NCBI RefSeq assembly: GCF_003315035.1
Contig: NZ_QNRE01000001.1
Location: 903,224 to 967,223, forward strand
DNA: 64,000 nt
Direction: 5' to 3'
Origin: Nocardia puris
GTDB taxonomy: Bacteria; Actinomycetota; Actinomycetes; Mycobacteriales; Mycobacteriaceae
The position numbers and the translations under genes are program-made. Below, piece after piece: positions 29,553-33,384 of the stretch. A model generated the notes under the pieces. The model did not search any database and had not been told where the DNA came from. It was given only the letters and a program-made list of their open reading frames with translations. Positions within the stretch are counted from its first letter, which is position 1. The number at the start of each line of letters is the position of its first letter.

Positions 29553-31172
29553 TCAGGACAGGTCGACCAGCGCGATCTTGGCGGCGCCGACCGCTTCGGC
29601 GATGGCGGACTGCACGTCGGCGGGCACCTCCTTGTTCACGCGCAGGACGACGGTGGCGCCGTCCTTGTCGATGTCCTGGCTCAGCTGCGCGGCCAGGATG
29701 TCCACCTCGGCCTCGCCCAGCTTGGTGCCGATCTTGCCGAGCGCGCCAGGACGGTCGTCGTAGTTGAGGACGGCCAGGTTCAGGCCCTCGGCGCGCATGT
29801 CGTAGTTGCGGCCGTTGATATTGACGATCTTCTGCACCTGCTGCGGCTCGGTCAGGGTGCCCGCCACGTTCAGGGTGCGGCCGTCGCCGAACACGGCGCG
29901 CAGGTCGACGACGCTGCGGTGGCTGGGGCTCTCCGAAGCGGTGGTGACCTGGGCGGTGATGCCGCGGTCCTTGGCCAGCGCGGGGGCGTTGACGAAGGTG
30001 ACCGCCGGGCTCTGCCCGTTTGCGCCCGCCTCGACCAGCGCGGAGAAGATGCCGCGCAGGGCCGCGAGTTCGAGCACGGCCACGTCCTCGGACGCCAGCT
30101 CGCCGCGCACCTGCACCTCGACGCTCACCGGCAGCTCGTCGGACAGCGCACCGACCAGGGCGCCCTGCTTGCGCACGATCTCGAGCCACGGAGCGACCTC
30201 TTCGCCGACCGTGCCGCCGGTCACGTTCACCGCGCCGGGCACGAACTCGCCGGCCAGGGCCAGCAGCACCGACTTGGCGACGTCGGTGCCCGCGCGGTCC
30301 TGCGCCTCGGAGGTGGAGGCGCCCAGGTGCGGGGTGACCACGACCTGCGGCAGGTCGAACAGCGGGCTGTCGGTGCAGGGCTCGGTCTCGAACACGTCGA
30401 GGCCGGCGGCGCGCACGTGGCCGGACTTGATGGCATCGGCGAGGGCGTGCTCGTCGATGAGACCGCCGCGCGCGGCGTTGACGATCACGACGCCCGGCTT
30501 GGTCAGCGCCAGCTTCTCCTTGCTGAGCAGGCCCTTGGTCTCGGGGGTCTTGGGCAGGTGCACCGAGATCAGGTCGGCGCGCTGCAGCAGCTCGTCCAGG
30601 GTGACCAGTTCGATGCCGAGCTGGGCGGCGCGGGCCGGGGAGACGTAGGGGTCGTAGGCGATGACCTTGGTCTCGAAGGCGGCCAGGCGGGCGGCGAACA
30701 GCTGGCCGATGCGGCCGAGGCCGACGACGCCGACGGTCTTGCCGAAGATCTCGACACCGTTGAACTTGCTGCGCTGCCAGGTGCGCTCGCGCAGGGTGGC
30801 GTCGGCGGCGGGGATCTGGCGGGCCGCGCTGAGCAGCAGCGTGACGGCGTGCTCGGCGGCGGTGTGGATATTGGAGGTGGGCGCGTTGACCACCATGACG
30901 CCGCGCTCGGTGGCCGCGGGCACGTCGACGTTGTCGAGGCCGACGCCGGCGCGGGCGACGATCTTGAGGTTCTTGCCCGCCTCGAGCACCTCGGCGTCAA
31001 CGGTGGTGGCCGAGCGCACGAGCAGCGCGTCGGCCTCGGGGACCGCGGCGAGCAGGGCCGGGCGGTCGGGGCCGTCGACCCAGCGAACCTCGACGCCGTC
31101 ACCGAGCGCGTCGACGGTCGACTGGGCGAGCTTGTCGGCGATCAGAACAACAGGACGGCCTGCTTGGCTCAC
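29553..31172 (-). CDS. serA: D-3-phosphoglycerate dehydrogenase, long form
   Basis: Catalyses the first step of serine synthesis. At 539 residues it is the long actinobacterial type. Substrate and Rossmann domains: VGVVGLGRIGQLFAARLAAF, VNAARGGLIDEHALADAI and ATSEAQ-type VVTPHLGASTSEAQDRAG. The intervening regulatory domain (~320-450) and C-terminal ACT domain (~455-535, binding serine for feedback inhibition) are both present. Upstream of leuB, downstream of ilvC at a distance. Confidence 0.95.
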   Translation of the reverse strand: MSQAGRPVVLIADKLAQSTVDALGDGVEVRWVDGPDRPALLAAVPEADALLVRSATTVDAEVLEAGKNLKIVARAGVGLDNVDVPAATERGVMVVNAPTSNIHTAAEHAVTLLLSAARQIPAADATLRERTWQRSKFNGVEIFGKTVGVVGLGRIGQLFAARLAAFETKVIAYDPYVSPARAAQLGIELVTLDELLQRADLISVHLPKTPETKGLLSKEKLALTKPGVVIVNAARGGLIDEHALADAIKSGHVRAAGLDVFETEPCTDSPLFDLPQVVVTPHLGASTSEAQDRAGTDVAKSVLLALAGEFVPGAVNVTGGTVGEEVAPWLEIVRKQGALVGALSDELPVSVEVQVRGELASEDVAVLELAALRGIFSALVEAGANGQSPAVTFVNAPALAKDRGITAQVTTASESPSHRSVVDLRAVFGDGRTLNVAGTLTEPQQVQKIVNINGRNYDMRAEGLNLAVLNYDDRPGALGKIGTKLGEAEVDILAAQLSQDIDKDGATVVLRVNKEVPADVQSAIAEAVGAAKIALVDLS

Positions 31173-31551
31173 TGTGGGGTACTCCTGGAGGAAAGGGTCG
31201 GCATTTACCGCCGATCAGCTTAATGGGCGGCGTTTCGAGAACGGGTACCACCCGGTCGGGCGGGCGGACGGTTCGGGTGGCCGCGGCCGTCCGATACACC
31301 GGTCGCGGCGGGCGCCCCCGAACGAATGCCGTTCTGCCGCAACCCGGCTGCGCGGGGCAGAGGGCGGACCGCCCGCTGGAGCCGCGTTCGGGCGCATGGC
31401 GATCGCGTCCAGTGGCGTTCTCATACCGCGCGGCGCTCCGACGTGGTCCGCAACAGCCCCGGCAGCGGTCAGCGACGGGGCATGAACAGCCGTCTGCGAC
31501 AGCCCTACACCTGGGGACACCGGTCCACGCCCCGGCGCAAGCGCCCGAACA

Positions 31552-31638
31552 CTGCTCGCGCTCGGCACGGCGGACCCGGCGCGGCCGCGCTCCGGCTCGG
31601 CCGCGTGCTTGCTGCGGCGCGGTGGGCAGCGGGCGGTG
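31552..31638 (+). pseudogene. Remnant of a VWA/CoxE gene fragment
   Basis: These 87 bases match the reverse-strand coding sequence at 49293-49379 with about 7 differences (92%) and no gaps, and translate to LALGTADPARPRSGSAACLL then RRGGQRAV, the same segment as residues ~47-75 of the VWA protein. Upstream and downstream sequence does not continue the match, so it is an orphan piece in 635 gene-free bases (31173-31807). The rest of this interval shows no gene. Whether it arose by partial duplication or is a relic of an older copy is unclear. Confidence 0.75.
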
Positions 31639-31717
31639 CGATCCGCGAACAGCTCCGGTGACGAGCGGCGGCGCTCAGCCCGGGGCACCACGGACGACCC
31701 CGGCCCCGCGCACGACA

Positions 31718-31748
31718 GAGGCCCCGCACCGAGGGGGTGCGGGGCCTC
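31718..31748. terminator. Strong hairpin terminator
   Basis: 13-bp stem GAGGCCCCGCACC / GGTGCGGGGCCTC with a 5-base loop, downstream of the small peptide gene on the reverse strand. Confidence 0.75.
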
Positions 31749-31807
31749 GTCAGCGTGCCGGTCCCGGCGCACGCGGGGCGATCGACAACCTCGATCGCGA
31801 CGTCTGA

Positions 31808-31927
31808 TCAGCGGCCGCCGAACGATCCCGTCCACAGGGTGTTCAGCACACCGTGCAGCGCGGCACCGAGAGTGTTGAACAGGCCGTCGATGGCAGCACT
31901 ACCGGTGTCGATGATAACGGGGATCAT
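31808..31927 (-). CDS. 39-residue amphipathic peptide
   Basis: A short frame from ATG 31927 with a very good ribosome site (AAGAGGA, 8 bases upstream) and a hairpin terminator after it. The sequence is MIPVIIDTGSAAIDGLFNTL followed by GAALHGVLNTLWTGSFGGR. Residues ~9-32 can form an amphipathic helix (G/A/L/I alternation with N and H). There is no signal peptide. Very short, no known family. In size and character it recalls the PorA/PorH-like envelope peptides of Corynebacteriales, but that is a resemblance only. The upstream region is unusually AT-rich. Confidence 0.55.
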   Translation of the reverse strand: MIPVIIDTGSAAIDGLFNTLGAALHGVLNTLWTGSFGGR

Positions 31928-32179
31928 AATTAATTCCTCTTTCGTCGAATTCATCCAGACGAGCTGGCTGACACACGGCACATCGGCGGCCGAGCGGACT
32001 CGGTTACGAAATTCTCCAGGATTGTGACGCAGACAACATTTTTCGATTCGGAGTGATCCAGTCGACACCGCACACGCCGATCTCGCCCTGGAAAACGGGG
32101 TCTCACCTGGGATTTCATAGCCTCCCAAACCTGGTCGCACGTCCAGTGCGCACGCGCGCGAATGATCCTCGCTTTTCTG

Positions 32180-32239
32180 TGAGAACTCTGAGAAACGTGC
32201 TGAGAATCCATGAGAATCCCGCGTGGAAATCTACGAGAA
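32180..32239 (-). repeat. Array of five TTCTCA-like motifs at helical spacing
   Basis: On the reverse strand TTCTCA (plus strand TGAGAA) starts at 32180, 32189, 32201 and 32211, with a CGAGAA variant at 32234. The gaps of 9, 12, 10 and about 23 bases keep the copies near one face of the helix. The array lies ~250-310 bases upstream of the small peptide gene in an AT-rich gene-free stretch (31928-32442). It looks like an operator set, but the regulator is unknown. Confidence 0.55.
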
Positions 32240-32442
32240 TGACACTTCAAAATCAGCTGCGGCAGCATCGCGCGTGCCCCGAGTAACAGGGGCGGGAGCC
32301 ATTGGGGGAATTCCCAGGGAATGGTCGACAGCGAATACATGGCAACACGATCGAAAGCGCCCGGCGACTGCGTGAACGCCCGGACTCACCCCGCGCGATC
32401 ACGGCCGCGCACCCACCCCCGGCAAACATCCGGGAGAAGCCC

Positions 32443-33384
32443 TCAACCGACCCGCACCGCCGCCTCCACGTCCACCTCCGACGCCGCGTCGAGACTCTCC
32501 CTCGCGGCGACCACCGCGCGCGCGAACGCCCGCACCCGCGCGTCCTCCGCGCCCCGCCGCCACACCACCCCGAGCCGCGAATCCGGCAGCCCCGTCACGG
32601 GTACGAACACGACCGGAGGTCGCTCGTGATAAGACGCCGTCGGCCGGCACAGCAGTAACGCGCCGCGCCCGGTCGCCACCACCGCCAGCCCCTCCTCCAG
32701 CGTGCCCACCTCGGGGCCGGCGGGGATCGCGCACCCGCCCGGCGTCACGTCGAGCGCCTGCGCGCGCCGCCAGTAGTCGGGGGCGGGCCCGCGCATCCCG
32801 ATCAACGAGCACTCCGCCAGTTCCTCCGCCGACACCGCCGCCCGCCCGGCGAATGGGTGCCCGGCGGCCACGGCCACCATCATCGGCTGCTCGGAGAACG
32901 ACGGCCCGAGCACCAGATCGTCCTCCGCCATCGGCAACAACACCGCCGCCACGTCGGCGTCGCCGCGCCGCACCGGGCCGAACGGGTCCGCCAGCGGGAT
33001 CTCGACCAGATCCACGGCGCAGTCCGGATGCCGCTCCTCGAACACGCCGACCGCCGCCATGATGTGGGCGTTGATCGCGCCCTGAAATCCGACGCGCAAC
33101 CGGCCCGACACGTCGCGGGCGGCGGCGCGGGCCGCGTCCACCGACGCGTGCAACGCCGCGTACGCGGGGCGCACCCGCTCGAGGAAGTCCGCGCCGAGCG
33201 GGGTGAGCCGCACCCGGCGACTGCTCCGGTCGAACAGCCGCGCACCCACCCGCCGCTCCAGCGCCCGCAGCAGCTGGCTCACCCGACTCTGCGACACGTA
33301 CAGCCGTTCGGCGGCGCGCCCGAAGTGCAGTTCCTCGGCCAGGGCGAGAAACGCCTCGACTTCGCGCAGCTCCACACCGCTCAT
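32443..33384 (-). CDS. LysR-family transcriptional regulator
   Basis: 313 residues from ATG 33384 (MSGVELREVEAFLALAEE). The N-terminal HTH is HFGRAAERLYVSQSRVSQLL with RALERRVGARLFDRSSRRVR, the typical LysR layout, and a periplasmic-binding-type ligand domain follows (VGVFEERHPDCAVDLVEI, GPSFSEQPMMVAVAAGHPFA). It is divergent from an MFS exporter gene 93 bases away, so it probably regulates that transporter. Confidence 0.92.
   Translation of the reverse strand: MSGVELREVEAFLALAEELHFGRAAERLYVSQSRVSQLLRALERRVGARLFDRSSRRVRLTPLGADFLERVRPAYAALHASVDAARAAARDVSGRLRVGFQGAINAHIMAAVGVFEERHPDCAVDLVEIPLADPFGPVRRGDADVAAVLLPMAEDDLVLGPSFSEQPMMVAVAAGHPFAGRAAVSAEELAECSLIGMRGPAPDYWRRAQALDVTPGGCAIPAGPEVGTLEEGLAVVATGRGALLLCRPTASYHERPPVVFVPVTGLPDSRLGVVWRRGAEDARVRAFARAVVAARESLDAASEVDVEAAVRVG

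Follow-up and report, generated by a model that had tools for sequence, protein, structure and literature searches.

How bacteria with mycolic acids populate their outer membrane and render it permeable, and by what route mini-proteins devoid of a leader arrive there, is an open question, for which the basis so far is a few corynebacterial peptides. It is raised again by a short gene of Nocardia puris, taken here from a 64,000-nucleotide stretch of contig NZ_QNRE01000001.1 (hereafter the window). The initial annotation of the window had pointed to a well-translated-looking frame for a 39-residue peptide at 31808-31927 and had likened it by size to the pore peptides of the corynebacterial envelope. 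These coordinates were retained and the gene was placed on the minus strand, the plus-strand reading not opening with a start codon. The gene, its signals and its neighbors are listed below.

31927..31808, minus strand: 39-codon gene with ATG at 31927 and TGA at 31810-31808; product MIPVIIDTGSAAIDGLFNTLGAALHGVLNTLWTGSFGGR
31936..31942, minus strand: Shine-Dalgarno sequence AAAGAGG, ending 8 nt before the ATG, with a similar site in relatives
31955..31967, minus strand: small hairpin CCAG-CUCGU-CUGG downstream of the promoter, close to where the mRNA presumably starts
31982..32007, minus strand: SigD-type promoter GTAACCGAGTCCGCTCGGCCGCCGAT, with the -35 element at 32007-32003, an 18-nt spacer and the -10 element GAT at 31984-31982
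32024..32028, minus strand: conserved GTCAC element upstream of the promoter, similar to an MtrA half-site
31718..31748, minus strand: terminator-type hairpin of 13 bp with no T-run
29553..31172, minus strand: serA (phosphoglycerate dehydrogenase, by Pfam), the next gene downstream, a frequent neighbor outside the system
32443..33330, minus strand: LysR-type regulator (by Pfam), an upstream neighbor in some species only

Judged from its sequence and that of its relatives, the 39-residue frame is a real protein-coding gene under purifying selection. A clear relative (E<=3.2e-5) occurs in 84 of the 98 genomes of the genus, the own genome included, and 80.1% of the codons with a single difference among 71 distinct coding sequences are synonymous versus 27.3% for random changes; because of these two results the gene is regarded as real and not as a chance frame. 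In the same 71 sequences the differences at codon positions 1, 2 and 3 number 13888, 4988 and 29479, respectively. The homologues that the initial annotation had proposed to look for, as short conserved genes, are thus present in Nocardia. Thirteen of the 98 genomes contain no match at E<=1, and the match of G087 (E 0.86, the 85th at E<=1) was not counted, as it falls in an 812-codon frame. Between two and four copies are found in 28 of the 98 genomes (E<=1e-4, rows counted by hand); N. puris carries a single one. A scan of the genome contigs with the patterns MIPVIIDT and [ND]TL[WF]TGSFG, by which conservation at those residues, toward the two ends of the peptide, is partly selected in the 71 coding sequences, matched 143 stretches, 134 of them encoding a relative, and 80 loci were kept; the search of the 98 genus genomes and the family set including L037-L049 are free of this selection bias. 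The named relatives belong to Nocardia, one of the 80 loci comes from a Mycobacteriaceae metagenome-assembled genome, and the nearest named copy, that of Nocardia amikacinitolerans, is identical. The peptide frame is shortened or frameshifted in three genomes (L070, 5028; L069, 4941; L109, 5034), and to judge from these three loci the gene can decay in single species.

The absence of a known family, also claimed at the outset, was confirmed by Pfam (none above cut-off; one sub-threshold match only, Flavi_E_stem, with 16 bits versus a cut-off of 27), NCBIfam (0 matches) and PADLOC (0 matches). In the literature searched, which left aside most subscription journals, neither a description of the peptide family nor data on expression, localization or lipidation of the peptide were found, and fragments of the peptide occurred in 0 papers.

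Translation of the gene is strongly supported by the conservation of the frame together with the ribosome site, the promoter and the terminator hairpin. The ribosome site is the AAAGAGG sequence, with 8 nt between its end and the ATG, and the AT-rich promoter area that had been noticed is reflected in a GC content of 53.5-56.5% (200-base windows, 31900-32299) versus 72-79% at 31200-31899. The terminator likewise described after the gene corresponds to the 13-bp hairpin located about 60 nt past the stop codon (-31.4 kcal/mol and z -5.2, a stability reached by none of 200 shuffles), which has no T-run and is not listed by a terminator pattern scan. Each of the 81 copies examined has a hairpin of -20 kcal/mol or lower in the 140 nt that follow the stop (median -35.5), a level that 63% of 162 random control pieces also reach (median -20.9). 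With respect to the small hairpin near the 5' end, 90.8% of the cells are paired in 42 sequences and three of its five pairs have changed on both sides; the covariation score is higher than in all 500 shuffles, and three of five measures exceed all shuffles, the other two being unremarkable (reached by 43 and 222 of the 500 shuffles). Folded singly, the own copy is no more stable than its shuffles (z 0.95).

The promoter of the peptide gene matches the corynebacterial SigD form, given for Corynebacterium glutamicum as GTAAC-N17-18-GAT in excerpts of two reports (PMC11588781; PMC6338062), which makes the gene a candidate for control by SigD. The SigD regulon of C. glutamicum includes porA, porH, ProtX and cmt1, as stated in an excerpt of PMC11175481. 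The motif precedes 52 of the 81 copies, namely 40 of 60 with serA and 12 of 21 without it, a count of related sequences and hence not of 52 independent events, and the chance level is 0.4% (58 of 16200, both for random pieces drawn from these loci and for shuffles). In the Nocardia copies the spacer is always 18 and the GAT ends 46-55 nt before the ATG; the TAAC is invariant in the aligned upstream regions (42 sequences chosen from the 81, mostly copies of the serA locus). The strict form is absent from 29 of the 81 copies, 20 of which have serA. As an alternative, GTCAC and GTAAC could be MtrA sites instead of a SigD promoter: the GTCAC element resembles the MtrA half-site form, as far as this is described in an excerpt of PMC6265350, and the two-part form GTNA[CT]-N4-GTNAC occurs in 19 of the 81 upstream regions (chance 0.4%). 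In four paralogues without serA nearby (L169, L171, L173 and L186) the promoter region is different and contains direct repeats CTCAGC-N4-TCTCAGC, which we take to be PhoP-like; the paper excerpts consulted do not print this motif. Repeats and promoter region together suggest separate regulation of the second copy.

The peptide encoded by this gene has no signal peptide, as it begins with MIPVIID and lacks a basic n-region; its net charge is -1 and it contains two serines and no serine run. Nine identities at a lag of 11 residues were counted in it (0 of 5000 shuffles equal; P 0.0024 over lags 2-19), the corresponding numbers being 11 in each of three relatives and 17 in one relative of the genus designated g4; of seven peptides tested, two, from g14 and g4, lack the repeat (P 0.83 and 0.89 when all lags are considered). 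The 11-residue unit reads roughly [D/N]T-G/L-S/G-AA-L-x-G-[LV]-[FL], and a partial extra unit is present in the paralogues L045 and L046. AlphaFold2 predicts a single helix over residues 2-33 followed by a loose TGSFGG tail (mean pLDDT 79.4, pTM 0.39). The amphipathic character attributed to the helix in the initial annotation holds, with the maximum of the moment at 100 degrees, a value that 8 of 500 shuffles reach; when the residues are placed on an 11/3 helix, one stripe consists of D/N, A, G and T and the other face of I, L, F and V. Nearly every full-length member of a set that was not selected by pattern retains TGSFG at the C terminus. Several paralogues (L037, L038, L039 and L049) have no Ser10, so that at most Ser35 would be a general lipidation site.

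Regarding its resemblance to PorA and PorH of Corynebacterium, the peptide shares with them, as far as these are described in source excerpts, the size, the lack of a presequence, the amphipathic alpha-helix, the occurrence in mycolata and, as far as the form of its promoter goes, possibly their link to SigD in Corynebacterium. PorA and PorH, known from the PorHA channel, are described as lacking signal sequences in an excerpt of PMC5310785; PorACj and PorACur have 40 and 37 aa, the reported sizes being under 60 residues. Restriction to the taxonomic family of the own genome, with regard to clear matches, and Gly/Ser-rich sites also fit the comparison. Unlike PorA and PorH, whose genes lie beside groEL, between groEL2 and ppk2, the Nocardia peptide is found at the serA locus, has almost no Lys or Arg and contains an 11-residue TGSAAL repeat; instead of a two-gene tandem it is single in its own genome, with tandem relatives in some species only. 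A single gene is likewise reported for Corynebacterium jeikeium in the portion consulted of PMC5944148. In the 10 kb at either groEL of the own genome no PorA/PorH-like small ORF passed the filter.

As a yardstick, 14 leaderless ORFs of PorH/PorA type (43-74 aa) were collected downstream of groEL in six of the nine genomes of g3, a genus taken as Corynebacterium solely from its groEL-linked pairs; 13 of these ORFs were tested (the second of L286 was left out), with the labels PorH and PorA given by order and look and with ppk2 unchecked. All 13 are amphipathic, and they are richer in charge and poor in GS versus the present peptides. A SigD-type motif within 250 nt precedes one of seven PorH and none of six PorA genes; taken as a criterion for PorA/PorH it is present in 52 of the 81 Nocardia copies, yet before only 1 of the 13 yardstick genes, and due to this rarity the motif is not diagnostic. 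Concerning homology, none of the six PorA sequences scored above its shuffles with profile A1 or with profile A6, and the result for PorH was marginal (two of seven with A1, one of seven with A6). The likeness to corynebacterial pore peptides, drawn initially from size, is partly supported: absence of a leader, the helix, a SigD-type promoter and a Cmt1-type enzyme in the genome also fit it, and the homology tests with PorA/PorH and the position relative to groEL do not. The peptide probably works like PorA and PorH; its membership in their family is unsupported by the homology tests.

Two further mycomembrane proteins are relevant for comparison. ProtX (cg2875) of C. glutamicum is also small and is described, in excerpts of PMC5310785 and PMC11175481, as an O-mycoloylated mycomembrane protein of the SigD regulon, its likeness to the peptide being one of description. 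NfpA and NfpB of Nocardia farcinica, porins of MspA type, are mycomembrane channel proteins as well, but according to source excerpts they are of about 20 kDa, Sec-secreted and grouped with MspA homologues, and they are unrelated to the peptide. As Nocardia already has these MspA-type porins, a second pore is not required.

By analogy with PorA, PorH and ProtX, it is moderately likely that the peptide has a structural role in the mycomembrane of Nocardia, as a leaderless mini-protein that works as these proteins do. SigD, within an envelope-stress response, would transcribe the gene and the product would be exported in the manner of PorA and PorH, with no signal cleaved off; a Cmt1-type transferase would then O-mycoloylate the serines of the TGS sites, Ser35 above all and Ser10 in most copies. 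The amphipathic helix would insert in the mycomembrane and self-associate, the D/N-T-G-A stripe packing or lining the oligomer and the I/L/F/V face meeting lipid. Lipidation, mycomembrane location and pore formation are what we infer for the peptide, and regarding its activity a pore appears likeliest and a non-pore scaffold like ProtX next. According to excerpts of PMC11066868, O-mycoloylation takes place on Ser/Thr among Gly, Ala and Ser with no strict consensus, and Nocardia has orthologues of Cmt1.

The N. puris genome encodes 15 PF00756 proteins, two of which were covered by structure comparison: one is Ag85-like and the other Cmt1-like, with 269.9 bits to Cmt1 versus 92.7 to Ag85A. The conserved TGS sites and this Cmt1-type enzyme make O-mycoloylation of the peptide possible, an idea that is directly testable by mass spectrometry. 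No usable GTAAC-N17-18-GAT promoter was detected at the 15 PF00756 loci, the sole match overlapping a start codon, which counts against a shared regulon in the own genome. Five of the PF00756 genes are clustered on one strand (G000:C4:543484-549563). A gene for an ECF sigma factor is located about 3.4 kb from one groEL; it belongs to NCBIfam NF007230, which is named ShbA and not SigD (302.5 bits), and matches in the PDB the ECF sigma factor 9isn (153 bits) and the sigma-D fragment 3vep (5.3e-22). The pair is called SigD/RsdA here because the adjacent gene carries the SigD-binding region of RsdA (PF16751, 2.3e-19).

Other functions were weighed against a structural role in the mycomembrane. Many bacterial proteins of fewer than 50 residues act as regulators of larger proteins, and a uniform helix with a conserved stripe of small residues would suit a small regulator, located in the inner membrane or the cytoplasm, whose binding partner is a larger envelope protein such as a kinase, a transporter or a synthase; this is nevertheless unlikely, as a building block that self-assembles accounts better for paralogues that stand free at unrelated loci, and a varying number of 11-residue repeats fits self-assembly better than a role with one partner. 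Marginally less likely still is a secreted surface-active or antimicrobial peptide, similar to phenol-soluble modulins, that would hit membranes of competitors or of the host outside the cell. Its helix is indeed short, amphipathic and leaderless, and more than one copy is present in the 28 genomes mentioned above; against it stand the net charge, unlike that of cationic antimicrobials, a sequence strongly conserved throughout the genus and not diversified, the SigD-type promoter, and the neighbors identified in the window by Pfam, short of a systematic search for export or immunity genes, namely serA, leuB, LysR, RlaP and a cold-shock gene. A toxin belonging to a type I toxin-antitoxin pair could also be a small hydrophobic helix with several copies in some genomes, but this is improbable and was dropped for want of support: Rfam gave 0 matches for 31150-32450 and the peptide 0 matches among 50,697 phage records, positive charges are few, and, in contrast to mobile modules, the gene occurs in the majority of the genus genomes, frequently at one constant position.

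The genomic context bears on a last alternative. A frequent gene order, with variations, is cold-shock gene, RlaP, sometimes LysR, peptide, serA and leuB, and serA was detected in the downstream flank of 60 of the 81 copies at distances of about 0.2 to 4.6 kb, a count that includes the own copy by manual inspection and is limited by the fetched flank, some loci being too short to tell. Other copies occupy unrelated loci, for example beside what we presume by reading, with no family search, to be a desaturase/reductase pair and a roadblock-GTPase operon. In N. farcinica, Nocardia higoensis and Nocardia shimofusensis the gene is followed just downstream by one or two additional related peptides, and in the genomes G006 and G033 one lies beside the first. 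The peptide locus is also carried by NZ_LN868939.1 (L301), a 2.66-Mb record of N. farcinica labelled plasmid 2, which looks like a mislabelled piece of chromosome; G020:C2 (L033), to which it was likened, has serA and leuB beside the peptide. The annotation of the N. farcinica record comprises 2 features in all. That the peptide is a leader or attenuator of serA, as the downstream position of serA with a hairpin between might suggest, is hardly credible and was rejected, because the paralogues sit at unrelated loci next to quite different genes, the distance to serA varies, the two serines form no run and selection acts on the protein sequence.

Beyond Nocardia, 63 of 401 genomes of the family contain a match at E<=0.01. 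Inspection covered 20 loci, part of the weak matches in the family and order scans, and revealed true relatives in g20 (two genomes), g15 (one) and g4 (five). Five of the 20 (L103, L104, L105, L107 and L108; E 0.0003-0.008) are false matches, produced by TG.FGAH near the end of a longer protein that we presume to be a D-Tyr-tRNA deacylase. The order scan gave matches at E<=0.01 in 8 of 249 genomes, strong ones only in three genomes of the genus, the weak matches having been partly inspected. With a profile of the g4 peptide, the window copy is the only match in its own genome (9.4e-5), and a profile-profile comparison by hhalign gave 97.3%. The profile of the g4 partner peptide (A5) has strong matches only in g4 and reached 15% versus A6 in the profile comparison. 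Two more of the 20 inspected loci (L101, L102) contain a 30-residue peptide near groEL in g23, a possible relative that is outside the sets used for the promoter, amphipathicity and homology tests.

Similar peptides, many of which start with MGS or MLGS and have strong ribosome sites, form tandem arrays in g10 and g14, arrays that were taken after filters for ribosome site and composition. The arrays noted, at L272, L273, L276 and L278 (g10), at L274 and L275 (g14) and at L279 (g4), consist of two to six small ORFs for GS-rich peptides of 35-54 residues. Similar GS-rich peptides from g4, g20 and g23 have no accepted match in Pfam or NCBIfam, and GS-rich arrays may represent a large class in mycolic-acid genera that has escaped annotation. 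Amphipathicity at the 5% level was recorded for 15 of 16 peptides of g4, 10 of 13 of g10, 4 of 5 of g14, all three of g20, both of g15 and neither of the two of g23. The motif [GT]TAAC-N17-18-GAT lies within 250 nt of 10 of the 16 g4 peptides and one of the two of g15, and was absent in this range from g10 (0 of 13), g14 (0 of 5), g20 (0 of 3) and g23 (0 of 2). Against the g4 profile, 4 of 13 peptides of g10 and 3 of 5 of g14 scored above all 200 of their own shuffles, which indicates that some of the wider class is homologous and some only similar.

A broader proposal, which we advance tentatively and with less assurance than the role suggested for the Nocardia peptide, is that these genes represent an overlooked class outside Corynebacterium: leaderless, amphipathic, Gly-Ser-rich mini-proteins, encoded singly or in arrays of up to six genes, several of them under SigD-type promoters, that would be lipidated with mycolic acids and would provide the bulk helical matrix of the mycomembrane as pores or scaffold. 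Within this class the Nocardia peptide would show the strongest conservation, and its 11-residue TGSAAL unit would be a repeating module for mycoloylation and packing. The Nocardia family and the similar arrays in further genera would supply candidates for O-mycoloylation outside Corynebacterium.

Further GS-rich small ORFs occur near the TGS peptide in g20 and g4 (L093, 3796-5410; L097, three peptides), one ORF of this set ending in LGSSNLGSGSSLFGPS. In g23, two GS-containing peptides of 62 and 47 residues with good ribosome sites are encoded at L197 (1839 and 2091), several kilobases downstream of groEL.
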